Shown here one piece after another: positions 9,757-34,887 of a stretch of 34,887 bases of DNA. The stretch comes from a virus. The DNA is taken from positions 1 to 34,887 of IMG/VR virus record IMGVR_UViG_3300042691_049967; one strand, written 5' to 3'. Made by a program: the position numbers and the translations under genes. Numbering within the stretch: position 1 is the first letter of the stretch; the number at the start of each line of letters is the position of its first letter. The notes beneath the pieces were generated by a model. The model searched no databases. It had not been told where the DNA came from and saw only the letters and a list, made by a program, of their open reading frames with translations.

Positions 9757-12700
9757 GTGACAGATAAAAAACACGATTTTGCTAAATCTGCAATAAGTAA
9801 AGCTGCGTTCAATAAGGACATCTCTTTAGCGACCGCGCCATCTAATTTCAAAGCAGATAAACCAAAATCAAAACCGTCTGTCAAACCTGAAACAGAACAA
9901 GAAGAACCAGAATTTGAAAATCCATTTGACGAGTTTGTAAAAACTTGGCAACAAGGAGACATTCTTCCTTTTATTCCACCTGGAATGACTTTTCACCTTT
10001 GCAAGTACAAGCTGAATAATCTTGATACAGATGCAGAATACCTTGGCCTTGATAGCAAATACAGAAAAAAACCAGATGCGAAGATTAAGAAAAAGTCTTC
10101 CATGTCTGATATTGACATTAAAAATCTTGGTCCAAAACTTCGCAACTCTGTTGAAACTGTCAGACAGAGAGCACTAAGTAGGCGCGGTGGACTCGTGCCA
10201 TGGGTTGACGATAACAACAAACTTCGTTGCCCATCTGGGACGCCAGCGGCAAACCAATTCACCGATGAAATGATGAGCAACTGTTTCATCGTGTCCCCAG
10301 GAACGGTTGCTGGTGCCGGCAGAAGAGCCATCAGGCGTGCTGGCGCAGCTGCGGACATTCTTTCTACTAAACCAGGACAACGTGTTGGCGTTAGTACAGT
10401 TCCTGGAGATATTGATGTAAGTAATGAAGAGGGAATACGCAAGCTTGGGCCAAGTGGCGCTCAAGCACTCATGTCTTCTGGTGGTCGAGTTGGCGTCGAG
10501 CTTGGAATAGCTGGGCAAATGGGTGGAGGATTTGGTTTCCGTGCAGACCCCAAGAAACGTTCAGCATCAAAAGCTTGGCAACTAGGTGTTAAAGAACAGC
10601 TTGAGCGAGGCAGACGAGCAACCTACCTTTCAGATGAACTGCACAAAAGAATGATTAATCCTTCAGCCCCTGGTGGGATACGCCTACCAAGTGGTGCTGC
10701 TGTTGGCGACATTCGCAATAAAGCGAACTTCATGCGAGCAATGACAGAGTTGTTTCCAAATGTGAACCCAGATGAAATTGAGTCGATGTTTGACAATGCT
10801 ATGCCAGACAATTTGACGTATATAGATAAAATCAAGTTCCGCAAATCTTTAGTTGCATTTCATGAAGCATTCATTTTTGAAGCAATAAACGCTCCAGAAA
10901 AAGCAAAATGGATGACGAGAATAGTAATGGACCCAAGCCTTGATGCGGCCATTGAAATAAAACTAGAACCATTTGCTCCTTCAATTACCAGCGGCAACCG
11001 CGTAGCTTCAATAGCATCGCAAACAGCTGCACAAAAAGCAGGAAACCTTGCAAATGGTGGAGTTCATTTCACCATGGCATTCAATCCAATGCAGATGTTT
11101 CTTGCTTCACGCGGTGTAGGGCACACGAGAAATGGTCGTGCAAACGGAATATCGGATTCACAACGTGGCGACATGCATTACATAGCTGTTCACGAATTTG
11201 GGCATATTTCACATTTTGGTTCTGTAATGGAAAGATTGGGTTTTGATAACTCAACATTAAACCGCTATCAAATGACCAGAACGCTCACTCGTGGCGGTGG
11301 TGGACCACCTTCATGGAATCCAAACCAAGAAGTTGGTGGATGGATTATTGACTGGACGCAAGCACAAAATCCGATGAACAGTCCTTCAATAGCTGCACTA
11401 ATTCAGGGTGCTCAAAACTTGCAAACAAGAAACTATAAAGGTGGAAACTACGGACGCGGAATATATGGTTTCACTCGTAAAGACCTTGAAAAAGATTTAA
11501 GTGATTTTTATGACGGTTTAATAGAAGCTGTTCACAACAACATTACAGATACTCCAGACGATGTTGCAATTATGCGCGCCTTTGCTGGTGGTGAATATGC
11601 CGCACTGAATAGCATTGAAGCACGAGCAGAATATTTTGCTGCAAGAAGAATGTTTGGTGAAACTGCAGACAACAGATTGAAAGCCCGTCGAAGAGGGTCG
11701 CTTTATAGGGCGCGAAATCAGGGATATCAAGCAAACTATGTAGAAGATTTTGCCAAAGCATGGTCCACTGGTCCATGGAACCAGCCAGGAGCTGGGGGAA
11801 CAGTTCTTACGCCAAGACAGATTTATGACGACATGGACAGAATCGGTGAAAATATTTCTGGCGTAAAGCCGAATCGATGGAATATCAGTGGAAGAATGTC
11901 AACTTCTACAAGGCCGAGAAAATCTGCACATGCACAAAATGTTGCTAGAGCAGTTCGTTCAACAGAGAGACTCAGCGACCCGAATAGCGCACAGTACAGA
12001 CGTAGGTCTATTTCTGGAAGAATGGCAACTTCCGGCTCTGTCAAGTCACAAAATACGCTCATGCCAACCTACCCATCGTTGGCAGAACCACTAGGAATAA
12101 TTAATCCAGAGCCAAAAGAAGCTAGTCGTTCGGCAAAAATCCTTCAAGATGCATCAAAAGTAAATGGTGTCACTTGGTCAAACCCGGTTCCAGTTGAAGA
12201 GGTAGAGAAGGCTAAGGACTGGGCGAATTCAACGTTGGTGTCAAAGTTTGAATTCCATAAAAAGTCTCTAGAAAATGGTTTGCCAGAGCTAAGCGAATAT
12301 CAAAAAGATTGGCTACAAAAAGTAATTGTTGACGCAAAGAAGGAACTCTCATACGAAGATGCGAGAACAATACTTGGAGACAGTGTAAATGATTACGCCT
12401 CAATGACTTCTTTGCTACGTGAACACGCAAGGCTTAGTAGTGATGATGCCAGAGTACAGCGAATTGATGCGTTCGTAGGAACAATGCAAAGCATGTCAAA
12501 AAATGATTTTGAAGAAATGCTTCCATCACTTTTGTCTTCTAACACATCAAGAGCCGATAAGCGCGTCCACGTGATGATGAATAATCCAACATTGCTGGAG
12601 ACTGCCGGGGAGTATTTAACAATCCACGACAAAGCAGAGAGGGATGCTCTCGGAATTGGGTATACAGGTTTTGCACAAGAAGGATTTACTGCTGATGTAA

Positions 12701-15700
12701 GAAAAGGCGTAGAAACTTGGTTTGGAATACCGTCAACCGACGACGAAGAAGTTCGAAGACTTCGGCCAGCTTCTGGCTTCTTGCCTCATGCTGATTCTGG
12801 ACAAGGAAGAATGGGCAAACTTCGTTCAGAGTATGGTCCTGATGTTCAGATAATGCATCCGTATGCAATGGGTTACGACTCATCAGAAAGTAACGGTGTT
12901 AGAAAATATGGCACCAACATGGTTGTTCTGAGAAGCGAGGTTTCCGAGCGCACAAAGACGCTTAGGGGAGACTCGGCTGCAGATAGAGCAAATAATGGAA
13001 ATGTGATACTTCCAGTAAGTGAAATGCTTAAACCAGAAAATAGCGTTGTTTTACACCAAGATACTGGGGCATCTCTGTTATGGGATGAAATCGTTGGCAG
13101 AGGTGGTTTGAATTCTTCAAATAGTCGTCAAAGCTATAACGAAGCAGTTGTTCTTGGTGCTTTTAACCTTAAAGATGATGTTGAAGCAATGGTTGTTTCG
13201 CCACAAAATTTTGACCTTGATGAAGATGAACTAGCAGAACTTCCACAGGGCATTAATCCAAAATCGGCAAACCCACTAAACATGCCAACAAAACTGGTTA
13301 AAGCTGCAAGATTCCGAGATAGAATGCTGAAAGAGAACGGAATTGACGTCGTTGTTGCAACTCCGTACGACCCAGTTAATCCGTATGGAAAAGAATTTGG
13401 ACTTGATGAAGTTGAGTTGTTTAATCCACAAATGACAAGACAGTGGATGGGGAAGAATTTTCCACAGGCAAACCTAGATGAAGTCATTACAGACGAAAAG
13501 ACAACTCCGTACGAAGCATTTATAAAGCACATATCCAAAGGGGTTGACCCAGAATCCGCATCTGGTCGTATTCTCGCTTCTGAAATAGAAAGACTTGAAG
13601 AACAAAAACTACGTACATACGGAGAGGCCGAGCTTGGTAGAGGCTCTTTAGCAGACCAAATTGACTCACGCGGAATGGAATTACTGCCATCTGTTGCGCG
13701 CCGTTCAGTAAGTGGAAAGATGTCAACCCAGCGTGTCACGCCAGACGAGATGGTTGAAGTTGCAGAGATATCTAAACGAGGTGTTGCCGAGCGTAAGCAA
13801 AAAGCAGACGCCGCAAAAACAAGAGTTGCCAATCTTGAAGAGGCGCTTAGAATTCTTGACGAAACAGGAGAATGGAAAGGCGCAGAACTTGGCGTATCGG
13901 TAGCAATGGTCACTGACCCAACACTTGAAACAATCGATAACCCCAACCTTGTCCCAAATAGTAAAACTAGAGCTGAGCTTGAAGCATCTCCTGGCGGTAT
14001 TCCGGCAGTACGCGAAAAGCTTTTAAGCAAAATTGACCGCGCTAAAAAGGAAGAAGCTCTACAACAATATTTGGCAGATAAAAAGAAAATTAGAGTTTCG
14101 CAAAATGTTCTAGATATTGAAGACATATCTCCAGAAGATGTTGAAATCCTCCGAGAAGAAGCACGAATTATAAAGCAAATGGAAACAACCGATAAAGATG
14201 CTTTCTTGTCTTTGGTTGGCACAAATAAGCCCAGTGAAGAGTTTGCCATCCATGCTGGTTCAGCAGAACTTGATGGAGGTCAGCTAAACGCAGCAAAAAC
14301 AGAGGGTGATGAGTTTGGCGGTTTAGCAAACAATACACAAGCTCTAAACAACACAAACATTCAAATATTCACCTCGGAGAGAGAAGAAAATATTGCACGA
14401 GAGGCAGCTTCTTCTGGATTGATGAAAAAACTTGAATCGATGCAACCTTTCACAATTGACTCAAGGGAAGAACGCGCATTGCTTATCGATATCGGATTCT
14501 CGGAAAAAGAAATGCAGGTTGGTTCAATTTTTGATGCACAAAGCATGTTTGGACAGAATGCAACCGAAACCATGCCTGGTTATATTGATAGACTTCAAAA
14601 AGCTCAGAATTCGTATAGAAACAAAATAAAAGCTGGAGAAAAAGTAGCAAAAGCACTCAAAGATAATCCACGTGGTGGATTTCTTTCTGCATATCCAGCA
14701 AGTAGGGGCAGTTTTGTAACACGTGGATACTTCGGTAGATGGGCATTTAAAGATATACCCAAAGACGTCGCTGAAATACCAACAGACAAGCCTTTTGATG
14801 GCCAAGAACCAAGTGGGAAAACAATAGACCAATTCATGGAAACACGCTGGAGAAACAATCTTCGAGGAACAGCATGGTTGGTGGACGGTTCAAAAAATGC
14901 TGTTGTTACAGACGTTCTTGGGCCAAATGTAGAGCGCCAGATTGTTGGTACAACGAAACCAGTATTTGGTTTGTCTGCAAGAAAAAATGATGCCAACACT
15001 CTTGATGATATTGGATTTGCGGTAATGGCACGAGCCATGCAGCTTCAAAAAGAAGGAAAAGAAGTAACACCGGAAACAGTTCTTTCAACTAGTCTTCAGA
15101 GAACGCTTTCAGGGAAAATGAGTACAGGGGCAAAACCAGTGAGACCAAAATATCCGCGGACTCCAACATATGGCGTTGGTATCGGAGCTGGCGATGGCCT
15201 GTTTGATAAAGCTGCCTCATGGCGTGAGTTTAAAGAAATCTACGAAGACCGCGAAATTGTTTTCCTTGATTATGAGACCACAGGTCTAGTTTTTGACGAG
15301 TTCGGAAAATCGACCTCAAATGGCGCTCCTGTTCAAATTGGTGCTGTGAAAGTAAAGAACGGCAAAGTCGTAGCCAGATTCAATGTGTTCATTAATCCAA
15401 ATGAAAAACTTGGTGAATGGTCTAGGGAAAACCTAAAGGATAGAGACGGAAATCCACTCACCGATGATTGGTTGTCTGGGCAGCCATCAATTGCTGACGC
15501 TCATCGCCAACTTGCAGAATTCGCTGGCCCAGACGCAATCATGGGTGTACAGAACGCGTCGTTTGACAAGAACGTCCTTGAAGATGCACTGAAGAGTTCA
15601 GGTATTGAATGGACTCCAAGTGGCTACATCGACACTAAAGAAATTTCAAGCATGGTCCTCCCAAGATGGACGCCAGAAAACCCAGACGGCCCTGCAAAAA

Positions 15701-16026
15701 TGGGTTCAGATGGTGTGAAGCGTCCGTCAAATGGATTGAAGGAAATCACCGAGTATCTAGGTGTTGAGCTTGGAACCAAGCACCACACAGCTGATGCTGA
15801 CGCCGAAGCCACCGCTGAAGTGATGCAGAAAATCATTGATAAAGCCATAGAGAATGGTTGGAGCGACAGAATCTTTAGTAAATCAACACGCCAGGCACAT
15901 ATTGACAAAGTCAACCAAAAGCATCTCCAAGAAATTGAAGAATTCAAGAAAGCTCGAGATGCATTTTTGGCAGAAGTTGAGCGACTTGCTACTAAGCGAG
16001 ACGATGGAAGCGAAAAAGATAATTAA
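9757..16026 (+). CDS. Giant modular protein (2089 aa): zincin metallopeptidase and DEDDh exonuclease modules
   Basis: The frame opens with GTG 9757 and runs unbroken for 2089 residues. A Cys-x17-Cys module (C158-C176, R-C-P-S-G-T-P...F-T-D) is followed by an Arg-rich helix. A zincin-type metallopeptidase has H479-E480-F-G-H483 and a likely third zinc ligand, Glu625, in E-A-R-A-E-Y-F-A. Four motifs of type I/V/L-S-G-R/K-M lie at residues 710, 752, 1318 and 1784, plus a variant I-A-G-Q-M at 251. Between 752 and 1318 is an uncharacterised domain ending in Y-N-E-A-V-V-L-G-A-F...D-D-V-E-A-M, possibly related to DUF3626/ADP-ribosyltransferase-like folds (weak). Residues 1318-1784 start with coiled coil. 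After the last motif comes a DnaQ-like 3'-5' exonuclease: D1838-Y-E1840, N1933 and D1937, H2010 and D2015. Hypothesis: a polyprotein cut between modules by the prohead protease. Not a tape measure: no long periodic helix. Confidence 0.85.
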   Translation: MTDKKHDFAKSAISKAAFNKDISLATAPSNFKADKPKSKPSVKPETEQEEPEFENPFDEFVKTWQQGDILPFIPPGMTFHLCKYKLNNLDTDAEYLGLDSKYRKKPDAKIKKKSSMSDIDIKNLGPKLRNSVETVRQRALSRRGGLVPWVDDNNKLRCPSGTPAANQFTDEMMSNCFIVSPGTVAGAGRRAIRRAGAAADILSTKPGQRVGVSTVPGDIDVSNEEGIRKLGPSGAQALMSSGGRVGVELGIAGQMGGGFGFRADPKKRSASKAWQLGVKEQLERGRRATYLSDELHKRMINPSAPGGIRLPSGAAVGDIRNKANFMRAMTELFPNVNPDEIESMFDNAMPDNLTYIDKIKFRKSLVAFHEAFIFEAINAPEKAKWMTRIVMDPSLDAAIEIKLEPFAPSITSGNRVASIASQTAAQKAGNLANGGVHFTMAFNPMQMFLASRGVGHTRNGRANGISDSQRGDMHYIAVHEFGHISHFGSVMERLGFDNSTLNRYQMTRTLTRGGGGPPSWNPNQEVGGWIIDWTQAQNPMNSPSIAALIQGAQNLQTRNYKGGNYGRGIYGFTRKDLEKDLSDFYDGLIEAVHNNITDTPDDVAIMRAFAGGEYAALNSIEARAEYFAARRMFGETADNRLKARRRGSLYRARNQGYQANYVEDFAKAWSTGPWNQPGAGGTVLTPRQIYDDMDRIGENISGVKPNRWNISGRMSTSTRPRKSAHAQNVARAVRSTERLSDPNSAQYRRRSISGRMATSGSVKSQNTLMPTYPSLAEPLGIINPEPKEASRSAKILQDASKVNGVTWSNPVPVEEVEKAKDWANSTLVSKFEFHKKSLENGLPELSEYQKDWLQKVIVDAKKELSYEDARTILGDSVNDYASMTSLLREHARLSSDDARVQRIDAFVGTMQSMSKNDFEEMLPSLLSSNTSRADKRVHVMMNNPTLLETAGEYLTIHDKAERDALGIGYTGFAQEGFTADVRKGVETWFGIPSTDDEEVRRLRPASGFLPHADSGQGRMGKLRSEYGPDVQIMHPYAMGYDSSESNGVRKYGTNMVVLRSEVSERTKTLRGDSAADRANNGNVILPVSEMLKPENSVVLHQDTGASLLWDEIVGRGGLNSSNSRQSYNEAVVLGAFNLKDDVEAMVVSPQNFDLDEDELAELPQGINPKSANPLNMPTKLVKAARFRDRMLKENGIDVVVATPYDPVNPYGKEFGLDEVELFNPQMTRQWMGKNFPQANLDEVITDEKTTPYEAFIKHISKGVDPESASGRILASEIERLEEQKLRTYGEAELGRGSLADQIDSRGMELLPSVARRSVSGKMSTQRVTPDEMVEVAEISKRGVAERKQKADAAKTRVANLEEALRILDETGEWKGAELGVSVAMVTDPTLETIDNPNLVPNSKTRAELEASPGGIPAVREKLLSKIDRAKKEEALQQYLADKKKIRVSQNVLDIEDISPEDVEILREEARIIKQMETTDKDAFLSLVGTNKPSEEFAIHAGSAELDGGQLNAAKTEGDEFGGLANNTQALNNTNIQIFTSEREENIAREAASSGLMKKLESMQPFTIDSREERALLIDIGFSEKEMQVGSIFDAQSMFGQNATETMPGYIDRLQKAQNSYRNKIKAGEKVAKALKDNPRGGFLSAYPASRGSFVTRGYFGRWAFKDIPKDVAEIPTDKPFDGQEPSGKTIDQFMETRWRNNLRGTAWLVDGSKNAVVTDVLGPNVERQIVGTTKPVFGLSARKNDANTLDDIGFAVMARAMQLQKEGKEVTPETVLSTSLQRTLSGKMSTGAKPVRPKYPRTPTYGVGIGAGDGLFDKAASWREFKEIYEDREIVFLDYETTGLVFDEFGKSTSNGAPVQIGAVKVKNGKVVARFNVFINPNEKLGEWSRENLKDRDGNPLTDDWLSGQPSIADAHRQLAEFAGPDAIMGVQNASFDKNVLEDALKSSGIEWTPSGYIDTKEISSMVLPRWTPENPDGPAKMGSDGVKRPSNGLKEITEYLGVELGTKHHTADADAEATAEVMQKIIDKAIENGWSDRIFSKSTRQAHIDKVNQKHLQEIEEFKKARDAFLAEVERLATKRDDGSEKDN

Positions 16027-16043
16027 AGGCAACACAACAACCG

Positions 16044-16080
16044 TTGACATTTATTAAAACGCATAATTTATGCGTACAAT
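16044..16080 (+). promoter_or_regulatory. Promoter-like elements with a 17-bp perfect palindrome (possible operator)
   Basis: The 97-base gap 16027-16123 holds a consensus -35 element TTGACA (16044-16049) and a -10-like TACAAT (16075-16080). They are 25 bases apart, too far for a standard pair. Between them, ACGCATAA (16059-16066), T, and TTATGCGT (16068-16075) form a perfect inverted repeat that touches the -10-like box. This is the geometry of a repressor or activator operator. A real -10 could lie inside the palindrome, but no hexamer at the normal spacing fits well. An AGGAG ribosome site follows before ATG 16124. Confidence 0.4.
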
Positions 16081-16123
16081 TGATTCAAAGGGATGTTGCC
16101 ATTAGACACAGCTAGGAGCTGAA

Positions 16124-16774: not shown

Positions 16775-18806
16775 TTGCTGCCCAGAAACAGGTCTAAAGC
16801 CAGTAACAAGAGTACGGCACATATCGCCATCTATTGTTATTTCGCGCCCAAACGTATTCCTTGAGCGCCTTCCTTTAAGCGAAAATCGCGAAAAGGCTAT
16901 TGCTTTCAAATGCTCAATGCAAAGAAGCGGTGGAAAAAAAGATTACGAATTCAAAGTTGGGCTAACTGGTTCATCAAGCCGTTTTCTTCAGGGCATACAG
17001 GCAGTTGGTACGAGCATCGCTCCAGGAAATATTTCCGGTGTGAGAAGTCCCGGTCGTTCTACTGTATTTTCTGCAATAACACCTGGAGGTGGAAACCTTC
17101 CAGGTGCACCAGGATTTGGTGCATTGAAACCAGAGCGTGGGTACAGGTGCCCTGAGGGGTATCAGTACGGCGGTCGCTTCACCGACTCAAGATTCTCAAC
17201 TTGCGGAAAACAGTTGTTTGACCTTCCTGGAGCAATCGGGAGAGCGATTGGACGAGCGCTTCAAGCTGCAAATGGAAGAAACATTCGACAGAGCACATCT
17301 GGCCGTGAGGTGGGAGCATTAGCTGTAAGTGGCGACATAATCCAAAGCAGAGCACCGCAAATACCTAAAGTCACAGCAGCTAACCGTGGTAGAAGGGTGT
17401 CGGCTGTTAACGAGCTCGTTTCCCAGCTTGGCTCTGCAGTTGACCCATATACAAGACTGGTGCGTAGAGACGGTTTTATTCTAGAGCCAGTTGTAAGTGC
17501 CGCCGTACTTAGGACAGTTCCAGATAACAGAGACATGGAAGGTGCAACATATATTCTAAGCGCACTGAGTCCTGACTCTATTGGAAATGACGAAATGGGC
17601 CTACTGTCAAATACTGGTGTTGACTCAATTGTTTACGCTCTTAATGGTGGTTCTTCAATATCTCTCAGCAAAGCCAGACCTCTTACTGTTGGAGAGCGAA
17701 GAAAGCTCGGAAAAACAATTAGCGCCGCTGAGAAGATGCAGAAAACAGATGACCCAACCGAAAGATTGCGTTTCATAGCTGATGAGATGGGCGATGGCCT
17801 TCTTTATAGCGAAAAGTTTTCAGGAATATCAAATCCAAACGAGATTGTTAGTGCGAAGATTCCAGGCGGAGAGCGTAAAAAGAATATACGTCGCTGGATG
17901 CTTGAGTCTTTCTATGCAAAAAGAAAAAAGCCGAAAGCTGGAAAACAGACAGATGAACAGATTGAACCAACTGAGAGAATTAAAAATCTCGCAGCAGCTG
18001 TAAGACATTTAAACGCTGGTGGTTCAATTGAGAATGTTGATGCAGTTATCCGCTCTGAAGCAGTTAAAAGAAGCACTCTTTATAAGACTGGAAAGATTAA
18101 AAACGGAGTCATCTTGCACGAACGTGCAGATGGTCAAACAGTATTTGAAATAGAATCTCAAAAAGACTTTGAACAACTTGGTGCAGCGTTTGCATCTGAG
18201 CTACAACGCTCAATGGGGCTTATTGCTCCAAAGGTGAGAATTGCTGGCACTGGGAGAAGACGACCGTACATGCTTGGCGAAACACAAGATATTGAATCGG
18301 AATCAGTTCAACAGCGTGGCACTTCAATTGCCGAATTGCCAGCAGAAGATATTCTTGGAATAGTAATCGCTGATTATCTAACCGATACGACTGGTAGGAA
18401 CCCATCGAATATTTCACCAGTTTCGGTTTCTGGGAAGATGCGAGCTGTATCTTCTATTAACCCGGGCTCTGGTCTTGCTGGAATGAGCCAATCAGAAATC
18501 CGCAACAGACGACAAATGTCGTTAAATGATTTCTTCAATAGAAGACAACGAGCCGCATATGAACAATACTTTGCTAACCTAAAGACTGCACAACGCAAAA
18601 AAGCTCTTGCTTTATATCAACAACTTCTTGACAGAGCTCAGGATTTTGACTTTGCCAGATTCAGGCAAACACTGGCAGTTGATGGTGCTTTAAATGAAGC
18701 AGAAAAAATTCACCTTGAAATAATGGGAACAATATTTAAACAAAGACTAAACACACTGAAGTCATCTTCTGGTGTTTTAAAGAAAATCCTTGGTTTGACT
18801 AAATGA
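16752..18806 (+). CDS. Modular protein with Cys-x17-Cys module and degenerate kinase-like domain
   Basis: The start is GTG 16752, supported by AGGA at 16741-16744 and overlap with the previous gene. The 684-aa product has a G-Y-R-C-P...F-T-D...C module (C133-C151), followed by the amphipathic basic helix I-G-R-A-I-G-R-A-L-Q-A-A, closely matching the next gene's N-terminus. Residues about 450-555 resemble the fold of phage/bacterial HipA- or PI3/4-kinase-like proteins: a beta hairpin, an A-S-E-L helix with G-L-I-A-P-K-V, an R-R-P-Y-M-L-G-E hinge, then D-Y-L-T-D-T-T-G548-R-N550-P-S-N553. Active relatives usually have D-R-H-P-x-N there, so the catalytic Asp and His look replaced and only the last Asn kept. 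V-S-G-K-M (559-563) follows immediately. The last 110 residues are helical. Family assignment of the kinase-like part is tentative; it may be a pseudokinase or an unrelated fold. Confidence 0.75.
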   Translation: MKTTSLSNCCPETGLKPVTRVRHISPSIVISRPNVFLERLPLSENREKAIAFKCSMQRSGGKKDYEFKVGLTGSSSRFLQGIQAVGTSIAPGNISGVRSPGRSTVFSAITPGGGNLPGAPGFGALKPERGYRCPEGYQYGGRFTDSRFSTCGKQLFDLPGAIGRAIGRALQAANGRNIRQSTSGREVGALAVSGDIIQSRAPQIPKVTAANRGRRVSAVNELVSQLGSAVDPYTRLVRRDGFILEPVVSAAVLRTVPDNRDMEGATYILSALSPDSIGNDEMGLLSNTGVDSIVYALNGGSSISLSKARPLTVGERRKLGKTISAAEKMQKTDDPTERLRFIADEMGDGLLYSEKFSGISNPNEIVSAKIPGGERKKNIRRWMLESFYAKRKKPKAGKQTDEQIEPTERIKNLAAAVRHLNAGGSIENVDAVIRSEAVKRSTLYKTGKIKNGVILHERADGQTVFEIESQKDFEQLGAAFASELQRSMGLIAPKVRIAGTGRRRPYMLGETQDIESESVQQRGTSIAELPAEDILGIVIADYLTDTTGRNPSNISPVSVSGKMRAVSSINPGSGLAGMSQSEIRNRRQMSLNDFFNRRQRAAYEQYFANLKTAQRKKALALYQQLLDRAQDFDFARFRQTLAVDGALNEAEKIHLEIMGTIFKQRLNTLKSSSGVLKKILGLTK

Positions 18807-25153: not shown

Positions 25154-25154
25154 C

Positions 25155-25550: not shown

Positions 25551-27724
25551 TGAACTCCATTGGAAAAGAATACGACTTTCTTGTATCAAAACGCAAGAAT
25601 AGAAAAAATAGGCGCAAAATAAAAGGTAGGAATACTGACGCCTGGGAAAAACTACGCGAGCGTGGCGTAATGGGGATTGATACTCTTGGTGATGGAAGTC
25701 TTGTTTCTGCTCCAATAGCTGGAAAAGCTTTGCCGAGAATAGGAAGAAGGATTTTTAGACGGGCTGCAAATTTTGACCCAAATCCAGTTGATGCTGATAA
25801 GGACAAAGTTGTCCAAGAAGGTACTGAGTTTGAGAGACCAGCACCTGTAAGCCAATTACAGCCAAAACGCCAAGTTTATGAAAACAAGACACCTTGGGGT
25901 GGGGCAAAAAATCTCATAAAAGAACAAAGAAGGCAAACAAAAAAATTTCAATCTTGGGCAACGGCAAAAGACTGGAAGCGCTTTCATAAAGAGCACTTTG
26001 ACTGGTGGACATTCCCAATTGATAGAGGAAGTGCTGCATACGGGTATGAATTCACACCCCCACAAGAAGAACTTGAAAAACTCAAAAACAATATTCCATA
26101 TCTAGATTCACTTAGAAGAGCTGCTTCTTTGTACCTCCGCTCAATGGCTTGGGATATGGGTGCTGGAGACTGGATTGATAACCCAGATTTTGATAGAGGA
26201 CAAGAACCACTTGTGAATATCAACCAAGCAAGACTATTTAAAATCGGCAGGTCAATGCAGATTCACGGTCTAAGCAACGAGTTCATCTCTGTACGCAGAA
26301 TGGTGCAATCACTTAGAGATGCTGGCGCAAAAGTGGGAAACGATGAGTATTGGGATAACCCACATGCCTACAAATACGCCCCCCTAAACCCAATCAATTC
26401 AGTGATGCAACAAGCTTTGCCTAATCCAGAATCACCAACGTCTGGAAACGCAATATCTGGATATATGGGGATGAGCTTTAACCCAAAAGTGTTCAGCAGT
26501 ATTGATGGTGGACCTCAGAGATTTGGTCTAGAAAACGAACCAGAATTTAGGAAAAAATACGATGATATGGATGCTGCTGTTGAGGCGGGTTATAACAAGT
26601 ACATGGATAGAAAAAAGGCAGAAGGTGGCGGAACTGTAAAGAATGTAAAAGACGCTATTCGTTATATGATTCTTAATTCCGAAATTGAAAGTTTTTTCTG
26701 GAAAGATGATTTAACAAGAGAGGAACATGCGGCCTTTCTTGAAAGCGGAACGCTTATGCCGAAAACGAACAGCGGTACTGGGAAAAAGCTCCGCGTTTAC
26801 CCTGCTTCAATTGGTGAAAGAAAGAAAGAACGCTCAGGAGTAACAAAAGAGTGGTACAAGGTTGCTCCACTTTTTGAGAGATACCTTGGGTGGATTGGCG
26901 CAACAAAATCTGGATATCCAGCAATATATGACTTATCGCAAGCACTAACCCAGAGTTCTAGTACTGGCAAAAGGGATGATGTAACAACAGCTAACTTAAT
27001 TCAGCAAATGCTTGGGGTGGTTGATAAGTATATAAATCCAACAAACTACACTAAAGCTTTTGAAGAGTGGATTAGAAATCCCCGAATTGTAGCAAAAGAT
27101 AAAAATGGAAAAATTGTTGGAGTTCGACTAGCATTTAACAATGACAGAGAAGAGCTTGTAAAAGAGTTTGATAGAAGAATATCTTTAATTAAAGATAATC
27201 TTGCTGAAATATTTTCTGTAGATAGGTCTCAATTTGACAGAGAGCTACCACCAGACCTATCTGCTAGGAAGTACATAGATGACACTCCGCAACGTATTAG
27301 AGAACAGATAATCCAGCAACTCAATAATGCTATGAGCGGAGATAATTTTAAGCTTGCTACAAATCTGAAGCAAATAGCAGATATAGTTTCGGATAGACTT
27401 GACAGCCTTGGCCTCAATGAAAAAGAACGCGGTTTTAACGCAGAGGCATTGAAGCAACTCCTAGAGCGAAGCGAAAATCTAGCCCTGATGGCCAACATAA
27501 AGAGACTAAAACCACGTCTTTTTGATTCATCTGTTTTTGACGAAATACCAGCAGACGAACTAGCTATGGCGAGACAGCTGATTGACCTTCACGTCATTGA
27601 GCAATTGCTTGAGGACAAGCCAGTAACTGTCGAATCAGCAAGGCAGCTTATAGGTGATGAATACTTTACTGATGAGTTGCTTTCAGCATTAATCGCAGAA
27701 AGACAAACAGCACCAAATAACTAG
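25550..27724 (+). CDS. Modular protein (724 aa) with acidic Asp-loop module and W-W-T-F-P-I motif domain
   Basis: I start it at ATG 25550, five bases after GGAG (25541-25544) and overlapping the previous stop; an in-frame GTG at 25547 is too close to that site. A basic N-terminus leads to the helix I-G-R-R-I-F-R-R-A-A and F-D-P-N-P-V-D-A-D-K-D-K-V-V-Q-E-G-T, an Asp-rich loop resembling an EF-hand-type calcium site. The same module recurs in the next gene. About 30 residues on is D-W-K-R-F-H-K-E-H-F-D-W-W-T-F-P-I, a block I have seen in small uncharacterised bacterial proteins. A motif variant, I-S-G-Y-M, occurs at 26453-26467. The C-terminal third (after about 26990) is helical, with many charged residues. 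No catalytic function is evident. Confidence 0.75.
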   Translation: MNSIGKEYDFLVSKRKNRKNRRKIKGRNTDAWEKLRERGVMGIDTLGDGSLVSAPIAGKALPRIGRRIFRRAANFDPNPVDADKDKVVQEGTEFERPAPVSQLQPKRQVYENKTPWGGAKNLIKEQRRQTKKFQSWATAKDWKRFHKEHFDWWTFPIDRGSAAYGYEFTPPQEELEKLKNNIPYLDSLRRAASLYLRSMAWDMGAGDWIDNPDFDRGQEPLVNINQARLFKIGRSMQIHGLSNEFISVRRMVQSLRDAGAKVGNDEYWDNPHAYKYAPLNPINSVMQQALPNPESPTSGNAISGYMGMSFNPKVFSSIDGGPQRFGLENEPEFRKKYDDMDAAVEAGYNKYMDRKKAEGGGTVKNVKDAIRYMILNSEIESFFWKDDLTREEHAAFLESGTLMPKTNSGTGKKLRVYPASIGERKKERSGVTKEWYKVAPLFERYLGWIGATKSGYPAIYDLSQALTQSSSTGKRDDVTTANLIQQMLGVVDKYINPTNYTKAFEEWIRNPRIVAKDKNGKIVGVRLAFNNDREELVKEFDRRISLIKDNLAEIFSVDRSQFDRELPPDLSARKYIDDTPQRIREQIIQQLNNAMSGDNFKLATNLKQIADIVSDRLDSLGLNEKERGFNAEALKQLLERSENLALMANIKRLKPRLFDSSVFDEIPADELAMARQLIDLHVIEQLLEDKPVTVESARQLIGDEYFTDELLSALIAERQTAPNN

Positions 27725-27739
27725 GATTTGTTTTAAATA

Positions 27740-27771: not shown

Positions 27772-27830
27772 GGAGTACTATTTATCAAGGCTCCTGATGA
27801 TGTGGTTTGAGCCAATAAGGGATTTACCTG

Positions 27831-30800
27831 ATGGAACCAACTGACCAAAACGAAAATGTAACAGAATTTGGCGAAAAAGCCATGCTCTCGCAGCGCGTTA
27901 TTCGCGCGACTGACCCTGATACATATTCGGACCCAGAATCAGCACGAGTTCGTGCGCGACAATTAGGGTGCATAGGTATTCGTCGTTACATGAACCGTAA
28001 TGGTGGACAGTCGTGGATGCCTTGCACAAATGAATCAGACTATAGAAAATACTCTGGTCAAGGATACTCTGGTCGTAAATTTAGACGCCAAGAAATTGAT
28101 AGAGCAGTAAGAGATTCAATAGGAAGAAACCACGGTCGTACTTTCCGTGAAAAGAGCGCAAACTACACAAAACCAGAATTGCGTGAACGGCTCAAACAGC
28201 GCATTATGTCTGGTTCAAAAGGTGGTCGCCCCGGTCAATGGTCAGCACGCAAAGCTCAATTACTAGCTATTGCATACAGAAAAGCTGGTGGTGGATACAA
28301 GGGAGGCAAATCAAAGAAGCAACGCTCTTTGGTTCGTTGGGGTAAAGAAAAATGGAGAACATCTGACGGGAAGCCAGCAATACGTGGAGCGGTAACCAGA
28401 AGATACCTTCCTGCTAAAGCTTGGTCAAAGTTATCTCCAGCTCAAAGAGCGGCAACAAATCGCAAAAAGATAACTGGTAGTAAGCGCGGAAGTCAGTTTG
28501 TTCCAAATACCGAGGCAGCTGCTTCTGCTAGAAAACGCGTATCCCGCGGAATGAAACACATTGAGTTCTATGAAGAACTTGAAATAAAAGCAATTGGCTC
28601 AAGAGTCGGTGGAAGAATTGGTCGGGCAATTGCTCCAGGCGGAGATAGTGGACCTCGAGTTGGTAGAACTGCACGCCGTGCAAGAATTGCTGGTCGACTA
28701 GACAACGTTGCATTTGACCCAAATCCAATTGACGCTGACGCCGACTTGCAGGTACAAGAAGGAACTCGCTGGGAAAGAACAATAACTCCACAAGCAAGTC
28801 TTGCTTCAAGACTTGGCCGTGGTGCCGTTCAGATGCCTAGAAGACAACCGAAAGAAACGCGTGTAGAACGAGAAATCGTTCGTGGAAGAAGCAAGCCAGA
28901 AGCCCCCATCCGTCGCGTCCAGAAACCACGTGAAACAGTTGGCAGAGAAGTAACCGCAATCCCAGAAGTACGTAAGCCAATAACAACAACACGTACTCCT
29001 GGAAAACGAACAAAGAAACCAACTGAAGCTGTAGCCAAACCATCTATCCTTCGGTCGGATGAAAGACAAGAAGAAGTACGTAGGTCGTTTGAAGACTTAA
29101 GTTCAGTACTTGACCGTGCTGAAAAAGCTCAAATTTATAAATCTTGGGACGAGGGAAGATACACGGTATCCGAACTTGCTGACCAGTTTGATGTCGTTCA
29201 AGATGAAATCAATTCGGTGATTAAGGACCACAGCAAATATAGAGAATCTTCATACAGGTCTTTCCGTAAAGCAAATCCAAAACTTGCGCTAGCAATTGAT
29301 AAGAAATTTGATAAAACAAAAACCAATATTGAGAATGCAATTCGTGATGGAATCATTCGCAACTGGGACAGCTTGCTGAATTACGCACTGCGCTCACCGG
29401 GCGAGAGGTCAATGAAGGACAAAATTACGAAAGAACTTTTTGGTGCATTCAGTAATGGCGCTGACCCAGACGGTAAAGGAAAACTTGTACTTGGGTATAG
29501 GCGTTCACGAAGAAATGGTGTTGATACTGTAGTAAGAGACATTGCCGACAGAAATGCAATGCCTTCAGATTTCAGTACTTTATACCAGTACAGACAAGTC
29601 GCTCCAACTATTGATTCAAGAGCGATATCTGCTCGAGATATGAACGAACGAGCAACACGAGCTCGCGAATTCAGAAAGTATCAAAGAACAATTGATGCTT
29701 CGAACATGTGGGATACGAGCATTAGCGGTCGCATGGCTGCTGGTCCATCGATGACTCCAGAAGACGAAAACAAATGGCGCATGCAGGAGTGGAAGCGTCA
29801 GCAACTAAAGAAGCTTTCTCTTAATCCAGAAGTCGGAAATGGAAAGTTGCCGGCTCTAGCTGGTCTACTTGGAGAAGGCGACTTGGCTCAAGGCATCAAC
29901 TCAATTGATGAGCTTTCGGAAGATGTAGTCAATAGCGTGTGGGATGAAACACTCCAAGATTTGATGAAAAATGGAATGAGAATTCCTAGCTATCGTGCAA
30001 AAAATGCGCCATTAACACCAAAAGAGCTTGCAATAGCAGCTAACGCAAAAAGGCCACTAGTTTCAGCATTCTTGGATGAAGTAAAGAAACTAAACCCAAA
30101 TGGAAACTTTGCACGTATTGACATCGATTCACTAGGTGATAAAGATGTTGAAGACCTATTTAACACATTTATACTTCCTGAACTCACAAACCCTGATACA
30201 CCTTCAATTCAGGATGTACAAATCGCTGCTGGTCTTCCACAGTCTAGAGAAATGGTTTCACTAGCTGATTCTGTTGCATGGCTTGTTCCAGATAAATTCA
30301 AAGACCTTGAAATACGGACACTAATAGCAAAACAGCAGCTCAAAGATGTTGGGATGAGCGAAGATGACCCCGCATTTGACGAGGCTCTTCAAAGATTGAT
30401 TAATGAAGAGTACGATAACGAAGCTACATCTGGAATCAATGATATTGAGAGCTGGCTGCAAGCTGGAGCACCACCAGTTGCTCGTGGTGGTGGCGGAGGG
30501 AAAACACCACCGCCAATTAATCCATCAACCGGAGAACCATTTGATGAAGATTCTTGGCGCGAACAAATAAACAACCTGGTCAGCAAGTATGAAACCGAAT
30601 CAGACAAAGCACGGCAAGAACTTGAAGAAATACTTGGCCAACTATATGACATTGGTCGGGCACAGGGTTGGATAGATGATTCAAATGAGCCGGGTGGAGA
30701 TGGCGACGATGATGAAAGCTATATGCCAGAAGAAATTGGCGACGGAATGCCAACACCATCAATTGAGGACGAGTTTGGTTATCCAGACACAGACGAAGCT

Positions 30801-33800
30801 TGGGAAACACCGTACATAGATGAAAATGGAAATGAAATTCCATATGATGGTTCAGATACACACCCATTGAATGTCAATCCTGAGACAAATCAACCATACA
30901 ACGTTGAAGAAGACAATCAAATGGATGAAGACCTGTATCGCTTCTTTCTTGACCCAAACAATATGCATGTACGAGAATGGATGGACCTTGACAACACCCA
31001 TACCATTGCGCGTTATGCAAAGCCACCAGCAGAACTAGCAAGGCGTTTTTATCAGGGCGACATAGACGACCCAAATCCAGAAAAGATTGACAAGAGAATT
31101 GACTGGAACAGACTTGTTAACTATATACAGAAAGTATCTCCGCACTTTTTCACAAGAGACAAACAAGGTGAACTTGTAGCTGACCTCGCTGAAATTACTC
31201 GTAGTGGAAATTATGATGGAGCAAGTTTCAACCCAACTCCAGACCCTGACGCAGACCCATCTGGATATCAATTCAGACAGCAATTAAGAGAATTCGTAGA
31301 TGCAAAGCGACAAGAAGAGGCGCAACTTGTTGCCTCTAGTGACCAAACTGGAAAAGCTCGTCGCGCAGCCTTATGGAAGTTGCTTGAAACAGATACATTG
31401 ACACCTGATGAAATTGCTTTTGATGAGCAAATGTTTGATGTCGCAAATGTTAACGCAGCGCTTTCACTCTATGCACTAGAGAACAACATATCAAACAATA
31501 AGCTCAGTAGTCTTCTTAAGGTAGCCAAACAGGCAGCTCCATCAAGAGCGGATGACTATGCAAAACGCCGAGTGGAAAGAATTGCTCAACAATTCATCGA
31601 CCAAGGCAAGTCTTCTAGACAGGCTCTTGCTGAAATTGATAGAGCGATTGAGCACCAGATTGAACTGCGTACAAAAGTAGGAATTGAATACGACAATATG
31701 CGCCGCGAACATATGGCTCTTCGCAATATGGTTACATCGCTATTGATGATGCGTCCAAAGAATCGCAAGCAAACATATAACAGAGATGGAAGCGTGCGTC
31801 GTCGTGGGTGGGACCCTAAGAAAGAATCTGCATCGCGCTATCTAAATCGCATGGCCAGATGGGATAGAGAATTCATTGGTCATATTGACAGAAATGGCAA
31901 CTGGAGACCAGGTGTTGTATCACAGCTTGTTAGTCGTTTGCGCCAACTCGAAATAACCACTGGCGCTGTAGCTGGTGGTGGTGCAACATCGGACATATTT
32001 CAGACAGCAGACCAAAATATTGAGCGCTTGAGAGAGATGCGCGAACTAATTGAAGATGCTAGAGGAGAAGCGAGACGCTTCGGTATTAGCGGTTTTATGA
32101 AATCCGGTGGAGCTGACGCCCGTCTTCTTGGAAGAGCAGAAGAGCGTGCGCGCATGTCGGCTCGTAGAGCAGCAAGTGGACACTTCATATTTGCATCTCC
32201 AAGAAATCTCAAGAGATACGACGATTTTGGTTTGCCAATTTCACGTCAAACACGAATATCCGCATCTGGCTTCAATAAGCGACTATCCACATTGACCGAA
32301 GAAGCGACCAGAAGCAAAAACTTTAAATGGTCTGAAAACAGATTCTTCAATCGTCTTCCAGACAGACTTAAAGACATTGTACGTGGGCTTGATGAAACTC
32401 CGTATACATTCTCGAGTCGTGGATTTAAGACAATGTTCCCAGCAAGAACAGCAAGAAGAGGACAGTCTGTCGGTGCTGGTATGGCGAGACCTGAAGACTA
32501 TGAAGCATTTGAATTACTCCCAGCAAATCCAATTTTTGTCGGTAAGAAAACACAACCAAAACGCAGAACAATATCTGGCGCAATGCGTTTATACACTGAC
32601 CAAATTGGTAACGAGTGGTATGTAACAGACAGAAATGGCGACATCGTAGTTAATACCCCATTTAATTCTCACGATGACGCATTGTTCTATGTTCGTCAAG
32701 TACAACAGGGATTTGAAGATAAGCCAGAATTTCAATTTAATGACACTGTCCGTTTTGCTGCCTACAAAAAACGAATTGACACATACCCATATCACGGCGA
32801 AGGCAGAATTCGCGAAATAGCTAGTCAGATGAATACGGAATGGGTTGAAAATCAAGCTCGTGGACCAAAGAAAACAGCAGCTGACTCAATAATCATGCGC
32901 ATGAATCCAGAAACCGGTGAAAAAGAAGTAGCAATGATTCGCCGAGCATTCCCACCATTCTCTGGAGATAGGGATGTAACTCTCCCAGGCGGATTCGTTG
33001 ACCCAACAGACCTCCCTGATGGAAAGACGCAAATTGATGATGATGTGTTTGTGACTACAGCACTTCGAGAACAACTTGAAGAAGTTGGTATTAAAGAAAG
33101 CGATATCCTAAAACAAGAATTTATTGGTGAGCTTGACGAACCAGATTGGGACCCACGATTCCCAAATGGAATGCGTGTTGGTGGTGTTTATTTTGAAGTA
33201 AAACCAGACACACAGCTAGTAGCTGCCGATGACGCAAAAGCAGCATTCTGGGTACCGATTGAAAAACTTGCAAGAGGCGAACAGGCAGTTGGATTCGGTC
33301 ACGCTGGCTTTATCTCGGCAATGCTTTGGAACGATGACGATTCTGATTTAGCAGACAAAATGGCAATTGTTTCACAATTGGCAAGAAGAAGAAATCAAAG
33401 AATCATTCGTGAAGTTAACCGTCAAAGAGCTTTGCGAAATGCAAATAAACCTAAGAGCGAACAAGTTCCACTATTCCCTAAAGATTTGCCAAATCCAGAT
33501 GCTGGTTATATTCCTGGTGGAAAAGCCGCCGAAGAAAGAGCACGTGCAACATATAGACGGCTAACTGGAAGAATGTCGGGAACACCAGTAGATAATACTG
33601 AATTAAATGACAGAGTTCGATATGCGCTTGTTAATTACTCTGGCGATGGTTTTGGCTTGCTAAATCAAATTCTACGAGAAACAAATGGATTGGTTCTTGA
33701 TAGGAATATGATAAATAATCGCGAAGCATTATTAAACGCCATCAACAACAATGACCCAGCAAGTCTTGCAACAAGAATTGGGATGGGTACAGAAAGCTCG

Positions 33801-34887
33801 TACAAGCGTTTAATGAATGAGCTTGAAATATACAGAGATATGAACGACTGGCTAAATGCAGGAACTGTTCCAGAAAATACAGTTTTGTATAGAACACTTG
33901 GACTCTGGAAAGGGATTGAAGACCTCAACGTAGGTGATGAGTTCTATGACGGCGCGTTCCAAAGCACAACATCAAATATTAACCAAGAATTTTTATGGGG
34001 TCCAAGAAATCTTCGTATATTTGTTGGAAGCGGGGTATCTGGGCGTTCACTATCAGAAGGAATTGAATCTAGCCGATTTGCGGAAGACGAATTTATTTTG
34101 CCAGCTGGAGCTAGATACAAAATTCTAAGAAAACCAGACAACTCATCAAGTACAAGAAAAAATAGTGCTGAACGATTCTGGGATGTTGAAATAGTGAGCC
34201 AAGGTGTTTCTGGAGCAATGCGTGGTACTCCTGCATTTCCGTGGAATGTGGACAGCGGCGACATTAGGGCAAGAATAAAGTCATCTAATTCAGATGATTC
34301 GTTGAATGTGGCAATAAAGCGCTCTGTATCAGGGAAAATGGCCATACCACGCACGCTGTTTGTGGGAAGAGATTTTTACGCAGACCTTGACTTGGCACCT
34401 ACGGCTACATTGAAAGAAATCAAAGATTCTTATAGAGAGATTTCAAAGCAATTTGGCACAGATAGAAATCTGGGAAGTAAAATAGCTGCAGAAAAACTTC
34501 GCGCAGCAACGGAAGCATTTGACGTACTATCTGACGCAAAAGAACGCGATTACTACGATTCAACAATCTTTCCAAATATTCAAAAAGATGCTAAAAAATT
34601 GAGCAGTTCACCAGCATCTGGGCCATCTGCACCACCACGTAGAGCAGTTCAGCCAGAAGCAACCAAGGCTCTTCCAAAGCTTAAAAACACACTTGGAAAA
34701 CGTCTCGGCATTTCTATCGAAATAAAAGACAACATCATCCCAGGCCAATCATCATTGAGTAGATATAGAGTGGCTCCAACTGAAAAAGGTGTGGATATAC
34801 CTGGCCCTAGTGGAGTCAAAATCAGAATAGACGAAGATAGATTCTGGGATGTTTATCACAAAATTGCTTCTGGAATCCAAAAAGGCG
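27831..34887 (+). CDS. Giant modular protein (at least 2352 aa, runs off the window): DUF5872-like, Nudix, ADP-ribosyltransferase and J-domain modules
   Basis: Starts at ATG 27831 with an AAGGGA ribosome site; no stop before the window end. Order: a Cys-x17-Cys segment (C47-C65); a basic DUF5872-like domain (about 113-233; G-G-R-P-G-Q-W-S-A-R-K-A-Q and R-Y-L-P-A-K-A-W; name from memory); an Arg-rich helix plus F-D-P-N-P-I-D-A-D-A-D loop (about 294-312); a long helical stretch; an acidic low-complexity region (about 960-1040); a Nudix hydrolase (G-G 1720-1721; R1746-E-Q-L-E-E-V-G-I) with an insertion between the box halves; an ADP-ribosyltransferase with R2021 in L-Y-R, S-T-T-S (2045-2048) and E2085-D-E2087; and a J-domain-like fold (about 2178-2240) whose HPD is G-T-D (2209-2211). 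I/V/L-S/T-G-x-M motifs sit at 631, 1419, 1581, 1911, 2126 and 2166, several flanking these modules. Likely a virion polyprotein, by inference. Confidence 0.85.
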   Translation, partial: MEPTDQNENVTEFGEKAMLSQRVIRATDPDTYSDPESARVRARQLGCIGIRRYMNRNGGQSWMPCTNESDYRKYSGQGYSGRKFRRQEIDRAVRDSIGRNHGRTFREKSANYTKPELRERLKQRIMSGSKGGRPGQWSARKAQLLAIAYRKAGGGYKGGKSKKQRSLVRWGKEKWRTSDGKPAIRGAVTRRYLPAKAWSKLSPAQRAATNRKKITGSKRGSQFVPNTEAAASARKRVSRGMKHIEFYEELEIKAIGSRVGGRIGRAIAPGGDSGPRVGRTARRARIAGRLDNVAFDPNPIDADADLQVQEGTRWERTITPQASLASRLGRGAVQMPRRQPKETRVEREIVRGRSKPEAPIRRVQKPRETVGREVTAIPEVRKPITTTRTPGKRTKKPTEAVAKPSILRSDERQEEVRRSFEDLSSVLDRAEKAQIYKSWDEGRYTVSELADQFDVVQDEINSVIKDHSKYRESSYRSFRKANPKLALAIDKKFDKTKTNIENAIRDGIIRNWDSLLNYALRSPGERSMKDKITKELFGAFSNGADPDGKGKLVLGYRRSRRNGVDTVVRDIADRNAMPSDFSTLYQYRQVAPTIDSRAISARDMNERATRAREFRKYQRTIDASNMWDTSISGRMAAGPSMTPEDENKWRMQEWKRQQLKKLSLNPEVGNGKLPALAGLLGEGDLAQGINSIDELSEDVVNSVWDETLQDLMKNGMRIPSYRAKNAPLTPKELAIAANAKRPLVSAFLDEVKKLNPNGNFARIDIDSLGDKDVEDLFNTFILPELTNPDTPSIQDVQIAAGLPQSREMVSLADSVAWLVPDKFKDLEIRTLIAKQQLKDVGMSEDDPAFDEALQRLINEEYDNEATSGINDIESWLQAGAPPVARGGGGGKTPPPINPSTGEPFDEDSWREQINNLVSKYETESDKARQELEEILGQLYDIGRAQGWIDDSNEPGGDGDDDESYMPEEIGDGMPTPSIEDEFGYPDTDEAWETPYIDENGNEIPYDGSDTHPLNVNPETNQPYNVEEDNQMDEDLYRFFLDPNNMHVREWMDLDNTHTIARYAKPPAELARRFYQGDIDDPNPEKIDKRIDWNRLVNYIQKVSPHFFTRDKQGELVADLAEITRSGNYDGASFNPTPDPDADPSGYQFRQQLREFVDAKRQEEAQLVASSDQTGKARRAALWKLLETDTLTPDEIAFDEQMFDVANVNAALSLYALENNISNNKLSSLLKVAKQAAPSRADDYAKRRVERIAQQFIDQGKSSRQALAEIDRAIEHQIELRTKVGIEYDNMRREHMALRNMVTSLLMMRPKNRKQTYNRDGSVRRRGWDPKKESASRYLNRMARWDREFIGHIDRNGNWRPGVVSQLVSRLRQLEITTGAVAGGGATSDIFQTADQNIERLREMRELIEDARGEARRFGISGFMKSGGADARLLGRAEERARMSARRAASGHFIFASPRNLKRYDDFGLPISRQTRISASGFNKRLSTLTEEATRSKNFKWSENRFFNRLPDRLKDIVRGLDETPYTFSSRGFKTMFPARTARRGQSVGAGMARPEDYEAFELLPANPIFVGKKTQPKRRTISGAMRLYTDQIGNEWYVTDRNGDIVVNTPFNSHDDALFYVRQVQQGFEDKPEFQFNDTVRFAAYKKRIDTYPYHGEGRIREIASQMNTEWVENQARGPKKTAADSIIMRMNPETGEKEVAMIRRAFPPFSGDRDVTLPGGFVDPTDLPDGKTQIDDDVFVTTALREQLEEVGIKESDILKQEFIGELDEPDWDPRFPNGMRVGGVYFEVKPDTQLVAADDAKAAFWVPIEKLARGEQAVGFGHAGFISAMLWNDDDSDLADKMAIVSQLARRRNQRIIREVNRQRALRNANKPKSEQVPLFPKDLPNPDAGYIPGGKAAEERARATYRRLTGRMSGTPVDNTELNDRVRYALVNYSGDGFGLLNQILRETNGLVLDRNMINNREALLNAINNNDPASLATRIGMGTESSYKRLMNELEIYRDMNDWLNAGTVPENTVLYRTLGLWKGIEDLNVGDEFYDGAFQSTTSNINQEFLWGPRNLRIFVGSGVSGRSLSEGIESSRFAEDEFILPAGARYKILRKPDNSSSTRKNSAERFWDVEIVSQGVSGAMRGTPAFPWNVDSGDIRARIKSSNSDDSLNVAIKRSVSGKMAIPRTLFVGRDFYADLDLAPTATLKEIKDSYREISKQFGTDRNLGSKIAAEKLRAATEAFDVLSDAKERDYYDSTIFPNIQKDAKKLSSSPASGPSAPPRRAVQPEATKALPKLKNTLGKRLGISIEIKDNIIPGQSSLSRYRVAPTEKGVDIPGPSGVKIRIDEDRFWDVYHKIASGIQKG

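Follow-up and report, generated by a model that had tools for sequence, protein, structure and literature searches.

A recurrent G-x-M peptide with clade-differing forms at module joints of giant phage head-cluster proteins is a candidate processing site

The giant proteins encoded beside the head genes in a group of uncultured phages carry a short peptide, [IVL][ST]GxM or another form that differs by clade, at many of the joints between their modules. The phage sequence analysed here (the window, meaning the whole stretch of 34,887 bases) is the IMG/VR virus record IMGVR_UViG_3300042691_049967, which is likely a fragment of a genome. We establish below that the peptide is enriched, that it is concentrated in the head-gene cluster, that it lies at joints, that the modules between its copies are shuffled, and that its form differs between clades. 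The motif is best read, from these sequence patterns, as a processing site, and the joints are probably cut by some phage protease. That the large proteins are polyproteins cut at the motif by the S78 prohead protease during head maturation, with release of the enzymes within them, is a more specific proposal that we regard as evenly balanced.

In the window, genes for a portal-MuF fusion protein, a prohead protease and a 487-aa protein are followed on the plus strand by genes for large proteins of 2089, 684, 2116, 725 and at least 2352 aa (Table 1). The terminase gene is on the minus strand, and the capsid gene lies outside the window; in relatives, the capsid gene is positioned downstream of the last large chain. 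A reading of the window made earlier from its letters and open reading frames (the sequence-only reading) had placed an HK97-type protease upstream of the large proteins, and Pfam family PF04586 does identify an S78 domain just ahead of them. The WGHN (from residue 64) and WSIGY (from residue 129) stretches of this domain are invariant in 17/17 aligned rows, and we take the His of the former and the Ser of the latter to be the putative catalytic residues. Matching the S78 domain by sequence to solved structures gave nothing usable. The sequence-only reading had also set recognisable enzymes beside the motif. The exonuclease and the J domain were borne out by Pfam, and a structural model of the exonuclease homologue from relative G004 has DnaQ and RNase T exonucleases as its Foldseek matches. 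The proposed ADP-ribosyltransferase is a weak match; its homologue in G001, the only other aligned record with this module, falls just under the cut-off for PF03496 (E 5.9e-5, 22.9 bits versus 23.4). The N-terminal module of g9757 is a predicted zincin-like metallopeptidase, with HExxH in 21/21 aligned rows, some of them near-identical, and a conserved E..xE stretch further downstream. Chains of relatives also hold a Zeta-toxin-like kinase module. Three of the large proteins share a Cys module, RCPxxxxxxxxxFTxxxxxxC, close to their N-termini (10225-10284, 17145-17204 and 19367-19426); it may be a head-targeting module; RCPxG was the top enriched pattern among the chains tested from clade E, one of the clades described below. 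An acidic module, DPNPxDADxDxxVQEGT, is common to the 725-aa (25775-25825) and 2352-aa (28716-28766) proteins.

Table 1. Genes, domains and motif copies in the window. Joint conservation and flank values refer to aligned genomes; pLDDT values are from AlphaFold2 models.
Feature	Position	Strand	Remark
Portal protein fused to MuF	3087-5375	+	
S78 prohead protease gene with DUF6321	5474-7894	+	
HK97-type (S78) prohead protease domain	5549-6016	+	PF04586, E 2.9e-12
ITGKM, protease gene	6440-6454	+	doubtful joint
VSGQM, joint past Pro-rich linker of protease gene	7328-7342	+	relatives VSGRM, VTGAM, LSGAM or GPVGRM there (matched by eye)
487-aa protein with acidic stretch	8217-9680	+	PepSY match below cut-off
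Zincin active site HEFGH in g9757	11191-11205	+	EARAE downstream at 11617-11631
ISGRM, end of g9757 N-terminal zincin module	11884-11898	+	6/6 aligned genomes; conservation 0.96, flanks 0.54
ISGRM	12010-12024	+	4/6 genomes at column; breakpoints +4, +16 aa
VSGKM, start of 466-aa module	13708-13722	+	module tandemly duplicated in G001, motif at each border
466-aa module flanked by two motif copies	13723-15120	+	464 and 468 aa copies in G001
LSGKM ahead of exonuclease module	15106-15120	+	breakpoints -13, -2, +11 aa
RNase_T (DnaQ-like) exonuclease domain	15259-15822	+	PF00929, E 5.5e-13
VSGKM in 684-aa protein	18426-18440	+	rejected as joint; gap-free conserved stretch
ISGYM in g25547	26453-26467	+	divides g25547 into two segments, each with counterparts in relatives
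ISGRM, end of g27831 N-terminal module	29721-29735	+	6/6 genomes; conservation 0.92, flanks 0.43
ISGFM	32085-32099	+	6/6 genomes; conservation 0.88, flanks 0.54; pLDDT <50
ISGAM ahead of NUDIX module	32571-32585	+	6/6 genomes; conservation 0.88, flanks 0.34; pLDDT <50
NUDIX domain	32901-33275	+	PF00293, E 4.6e-8
LTGRM ahead of ADP-ribosyltransferase-like module	33561-33575	+	kept in G001; pLDDT <50
ADP-ribosyltransferase-like domain (weak)	33612-34127	+	phrog_3895, E 0.009
VSGAM past ADP-ribosyltransferase-like module	34206-34220	+	kept in G001; pLDDT <50
VSGKM ahead of J domain	34326-34340	+	pLDDT <50
DnaJ domain	34371-34559	+	PF00226, E 1.2e-9

The pattern [IVL][ST]GxM occurs 14 times in the 11 plus-strand genes of the window, versus 0.45 copies expected, and none of 1000 residue shuffles reached 14, ruling out chance or composition as its origin. 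The narrower pattern [IVL]SG[KR]M occurs 7 times, versus 0.03 expected from residue shuffles of the same genes. All 13 copies listed in the sequence-only reading start exactly at the coordinates given, in the frames named; the 14th, ITGKM at 6440, was absent from that list. The codons of the motif differ between copies, indicating a protein-level pattern and ruling out a DNA repeat. An excess of NCT codons at the motif (37/71 copies) was considered as a DNA signal and rejected: in other parts of these records, Ser and Thr codons that precede Gly are NCT at frequencies of 0.36-0.55, such that the excess is explained by general codon context before Gly. Translation starting internally from the ATG of the motif was likewise rejected, with a Shine-Dalgarno-like 5-mer preceding 0/89 copies, versus 27/1121 other in-frame ATGs and 12/66 gene starts. 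A profile of 100 copies from six records reads [IVL]-[ST]-G-x-M, in which x is most often R, K or A. Gly, Ser, Asn and Pro are enriched around these copies, and in 87 of them M is followed by Ser, Gly, Arg or Ala. The basic residues reported earlier ahead of the motif proved to be only a mild trend, with Arg about twofold enriched at -2/-3 in the same set.

A scan based on the protease yielded 217 relatives, and the best 80 loci among them were retained; seven relatives were read whole or nearly so (G003 and G008 are nearly identical), and six more whole or partly. The motif occurs 185 times in 81 loci, a set in which some contigs are near-identical and the window is itself represented, versus 18.4 copies expected. 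Counts in the cluster and in the rest of the record were 15/3, 15/2, 18/3, 19/1, 16/0, 4/1 and 15/0 for the seven relatives, and 14/0 for the window; the shuffle expectation for the seven relatives was 0.3-0.7 copies in the protease-to-capsid cluster and 0.2-1.6 outside it. The cluster count stops ahead of the capsid gene. One chain of G010, at 47610, lies past its capsid gene and was counted as a polyprotein in the breakpoint, protein-end and clade-form counts below. Of the 10 copies outside the cluster, 6 lie in a minus-strand protein of 1.6-1.7 kaa. The 1616-aa protein at L087 15098-19945 (minus strand), outside the cluster, has 3 matches in G001; its homologues have 2 in G008, 1 in G004 and none in G006 and G015, and there is no PHROG match.

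Among 50,697 phage records, there was no close relative of g9757 or of the 684-aa protein, and the 16 relatives of g27831 cover at most 6% of it. Searching with the ADP-ribosyltransferase module gave no further relatives, and searching with the exonuclease module gave one locus, which was the G001 record again. For cultured neighbours, one GMA6 protein contains LSGTM, and no copy is present in five further proteins checked from GMA6, Cantare and Chidiebere. Three protease relatives (L167, L168 and L169) are contigs binned in metagenome-assembled genomes (Gammaproteobacteria SP183, Phycisphaerae ETNP2) and are probably phage contigs; they have frames of 1672-2698 aa and no motif.

Homology breakpoints between the large proteins fell within 5 aa of a motif in 33 of 342 cases, versus 6.5 expected and a maximum of 15 in 1000 draws. 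From the side of the motif, 46 of 96 copies had a breakpoint within 20 aa, versus a control mean of 20.1 and a maximum of 33 in 500 draws. The close pairs window/G001 and G004/G006 were omitted from this test, G008 was used and its near-copy G003 was not, and alignments shorter than 80 aa were dropped. Segments between motifs, compared after dropping those shorter than 60 aa, have been duplicated, inserted and relocated whole. The tandem duplication of the 466-aa module in G001 is given in Table 1. The exonuclease module is bordered by a motif and the end of the open reading frame in the window and G001, and lies between two motifs, elsewhere in the chain, in G004, G006, G008 and G015; in some genomes, an open reading frame end stands in place of the motif. 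G006 has two modules between copies at a place where G004 has none. Four joints have the motif in 6/6 genomes, with conservation of 0.88-0.96 versus 0.34-0.54 for the flanks, and a fifth joint column has it in 4/6 genomes (0.62 versus 0.37), although these columns were picked for holding the motif, a choice that favours it. In 5/5 scanned chains that have a J domain, this domain begins 12-14 residues past the motif G.

The motif avoids recognised domains. One of 64 copies in 16 proteins lies inside a Pfam stretch, versus 7.4 expected from the 9.5% coverage (P 0.005); this count covers the window's 5 large proteins and 11 chains of relatives, with the best stretch per family and intervals entered by hand. 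The sole exception, at residue 2651 of the G008 chain, is inside a weak J-domain match. In two AlphaFold2 models, 9/9 copies have pLDDT <50, in a setting of shallow alignments (10 and 8 rows), a mean pLDDT of 57 in both, and 48% and 43% of residues below 50. The best-ordered part of the second model is the exonuclease (residues 70-342), which lies between copies at 60-64 and 344-348. The motif also shuns protein ends, with 2/118 copies within 100 aa of an end versus 12.1 expected; copy-free proteins, the 684-aa type and G003 were omitted from this count (G008 was used), and the open C-terminus of g27831 was not scored. The sequence-only reading had predicted that the motif would be kept at module borders while the flanks vary, and had named copies inside domain cores as the observation that would speak against it. 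The prediction is upheld by the breakpoints, the module shuffling, the joint conservation and the Pfam overlap, and 63/64 copies are outside Pfam stretches.

Twelve of the 14 window copies stand as joint markers. The copy at 18426 had been read as a border past a kinase-like part; we found it within the gap-free conserved fold of the 684-aa protein, where relatives have VEGKM, VRGKM, VGGRM or nothing comparable, and we reject it as a joint. We regard the copy at 6440 with doubt. At this site the window's group keeps G[KR]M, as does the motif-free clade E relative L068 (GRM), and most other clades keep GR without M; a conserved LA..HFGG stretch then follows. The 2116-aa protein has no motif copy, nor do its homologues in G001 and G010; a single copy is present in each homologue from G004, G006, G008 and G015. 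Hence, by the motif test, not every large protein of the window is a polyprotein. The earlier claim that the giant proteins are polyproteins is partly supported, by joints at module borders and by the S78 gene upstream, and this support does not extend to the 684-aa protein, whose copy is in a conserved stretch, or to the 2116-aa protein.

A tree of the S78 domain (FastTree with midpoint rooting, branch support not inspected, clade letters assigned in this analysis) splits groups that use different forms of the motif; the clade patterns were chosen after viewing the same sequences. The form of the window's group is [IVL][ST]GxM, with x mostly K or R in the window, G001, G004, G006 and G015, and more often A or S than K or R in G003 and G008, which belong to the window's clade. 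G009, G019 and G014 use [IVL][ST]G[SA]M, with 10, 11 and 5 copies in the cluster and 0 outside. The clearest departure is that of G013 and its kin (clade C), which use GP[VI]GxM; in G013, all 15 copies of GP[VIAS]GxM lie in the cluster (shuffle mean 0.03), and the three chains have 9, 2 and 11 copies when Ser or Ala is allowed for the first Gly. In clade C, S78 makes up the N-terminal portion of a 3190-aa chain (L161, G013:C1:85085-94657) with 11 copies of [GSA]PxGxM, and a 5345-aa open frame downstream of it in the G013 cluster has 9. G010 has GV[VTI]GxM plus VTGxM, with 8 copies of the V form in the cluster and 2 outside. The correspondence between form and clade is imperfect: past the Pro-rich linker of the protease gene, L005 and L006, from the window's group, read VTGAM, and so does G010. 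In clade E (two records read partly, other loci shorter) and in three marine relatives, an S78 protease and large proteins are present and the motif is at about chance level or absent.

The protease gene itself carries the motif in many relatives. The forms past its Pro-rich linker are VSGQM, VSGRM, ITGRM, VTGAM, LSGAM, ISGSM and GPVGRM, according to the relative. By eye, 17/24 protease proteins have the motif at this linker, and an 18th (L059) has one elsewhere. Among the 24 inspected, those of G008, G015, G004, G006, G018 and G020 have no form of the motif; the protease protein of G003 also has no copy.

Of the large proteins encoded past the portal and protease genes, most are, we propose, polyvalent polyproteins. 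At the N-terminus, a module that in many cases spans 600-750 residues would likely bring the chain into the prohead, and would be followed by enzyme modules (exonuclease, NUDIX, ADP-ribosyltransferase-like and J domain, and in relatives the kinase), with many of the joints formed by flexible linkers containing [IVL][ST]-G-x-M-[SGAR]. The S78 prohead protease would recognise the G-x-M core and cut during head maturation, and the freed enzymes would be small enough to exit with the DNA via the portal. Should cleavage follow the pattern of A-x-E in SPN3US and of I/L-T-E in T4 Alt, it would occur after M, placing G at P3 and M at P1, and the new N-terminus would mostly be S, G, R or A. We favour a processing site because the motif lies at many joints, shuns protein ends, is missing in seven records from the portal and (as a joint) from the 684-aa type, stays steady amid drifting flanks and differs in form by clade. 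S78 is the first candidate for the enzyme because its gene is the neighbour, because the motif occurs in that gene itself, in the window as in many relatives, and because prohead proteases are known to cut at short motifs. The fullest version of this proposal, in which a single capsid protease of clade-shifting site preference breaks chains as long as about 5,300 residues into injected enzymes by cleaving as many as eleven joints in each, and the joint permits cassette-like swaps of modules, we hold more tentatively, as falling slightly short of an even call.

Several observations count against S78. The capsid protein is the expected main substrate of an S78 protease, and it contains neither [IVL][ST]GxM nor [PV][VITA]GxM in any of the 11 records that hold the gene (the window is not among them). 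A stretch in its N-terminal part, G[RKQ]NG[AV]NM (e.g. L090 8828-10246), is kept in 11/11 records, is constant across the clade motifs, and may adjoin the capsid cut site. Clade E and the three marine relatives hold the protease while the motif is near chance or absent, and the differences in form between clades would also be expected from plain descent. Weighing on the same side are the copy-free proteins (the protease proteins of G003, G004, G006, G008 and G015, the 2116-aa protein with its G001 and G010 homologues, and gp48 of Streptomyces phage Gilgamesh), the G008 copy within a weak J-domain match, and the uneven form within the window's clade. The main rival enzyme is the zincin metallopeptidase of the g9757 N-terminal module, which would cut the joints in the head or after injection. 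A zincin cutter would account for the capsid protein not sharing the site, the active site of the g9757 module is conserved as described above, and domain release by embedded metallopeptidases is proposed for polyvalent proteins in excerpts of PMC5512222. We nevertheless consider this cutter unlikely: HExxH proteins are also found in the clade E records G018 and G020, where the motif is at about chance level, in the clade C record G013, BLAST gave no match between the chain of the HExxH protein and the zincin module of the window, and it is the S78 gene that has a motif copy at its own linker. Presence and absence across records fail to separate the two enzymes, as HExxH and S78 are each found in motif-bearing and motif-free records alike.

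Other explanations involve no cutting. The motif could be an inert linker peptide kept as a recombination site, or a remnant left where genes fused at start codons, and the exchange of modules with borders at the motif, as well as the resemblance of modules starting at M to gene starts, would fit this. However, synonymous codons vary, the NCT excess reflects general codon context, the motif ATG lacks the Shine-Dalgarno-like 5-mer, and neither conservation above the flanks at fixed joints nor clade-wide replacement of the form is readily explained by an inert peptide. We judge this explanation slightly less likely than the zincin. Least likely of these, in our estimation, is a docking or packaging tag that binds scaffold, capsid or portal. 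The presence of copies in low-confidence linkers of head-cluster proteins, with few elsewhere, is consistent with such a tag, but tags are expected at protein ends, which the motif avoids, and on proteins such as the portal, which has no copy in 7/7 records. The 684-aa-type protein is similarly without a copy in 4/7 records and has only the in-fold match in the other 3. Clade C portals have one LSGIM match, which is not the form of that clade.

The loading and ejection by phages of proteins of thousands of residues is poorly understood, and the motif offers a practical rule for dividing giant phage proteins into modules for annotation. By predicted domains and genome place, the large proteins are polyvalent proteins: biochemically unlike domains share one chain (NUDIX, ADP-ribosyltransferase-like and J domains in g27831; a zincin-like HExxH module and an exonuclease in g9757), and the neighbourhood is that of head genes, with portal-MuF and S78 upstream and, in relatives, capsid downstream. 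Polyvalent proteins are similarly described in excerpts of PMC5512222 (Iyer et al. 2017) as very large multi-domain phage proteins with ADP-ribosyltransferase, zincin and nucleic-acid enzyme domains; they are compared there with RNA-virus polyproteins, and their release by embedded peptidases is predicted. Those excerpts describe no repeated inter-module peptide, whereas here a chain can have as many as 11 copies, and a separate S78 protease is encoded alongside. Processing of polyvalent proteins was predicted in those excerpts without a cut-site code, and a defined joint peptide makes the prediction directly testable.

Excerpts of PMC5694885 report that the SPN3US prohead protease cuts head and ejection proteins at A-x-E, and excerpts on prohead-protease processing in SPN3US, phiKZ and T4 (PMC5694885, PMC10052503) report that T4 Alt is cut at ITE and LTE. 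Our proposal resembles these systems in having a phage protease and a short motif with two fixed positions; the cuts they describe remove N- or C-terminal propeptides, whereas here the motif parts many modules and has a G-x-M core. The HK97-type capsid maturation protease (Pfam S78) is of the same family as the protease here, with its gene between the portal and capsid genes. Its known substrate in D3 and HK97, according to excerpts of PMC12749128, is the capsid scaffold domain, whereas the capsid protein here is without the motif. Nudix and ADP-ribosyltransferase domains fused to MuF, portal or a capsid-processing serine peptidase are thought to be packaged and injected (PMC9503650); the excerpts of that source mention no recurring peptide at joints, unlike the situation here. 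The Streptomyces phage Gilgamesh also has a giant protein, gp48 (4624 aa; L166 4764-18638), between portal-MuF and a distantly related protease, but gp48 has no motif copy. In the open-licence PubMed Central literature, we found no phage cut-site code of this kind, with clade-differing forms and joints that serve as module borders. Compared with these systems, what appears to be new is a coded joint peptide that takes differing forms across several clades and whose joints are module borders; if our reading is true, tailed DNA phages would run a genuine polyprotein economy, with modules exchanged like cassettes at coded joints.
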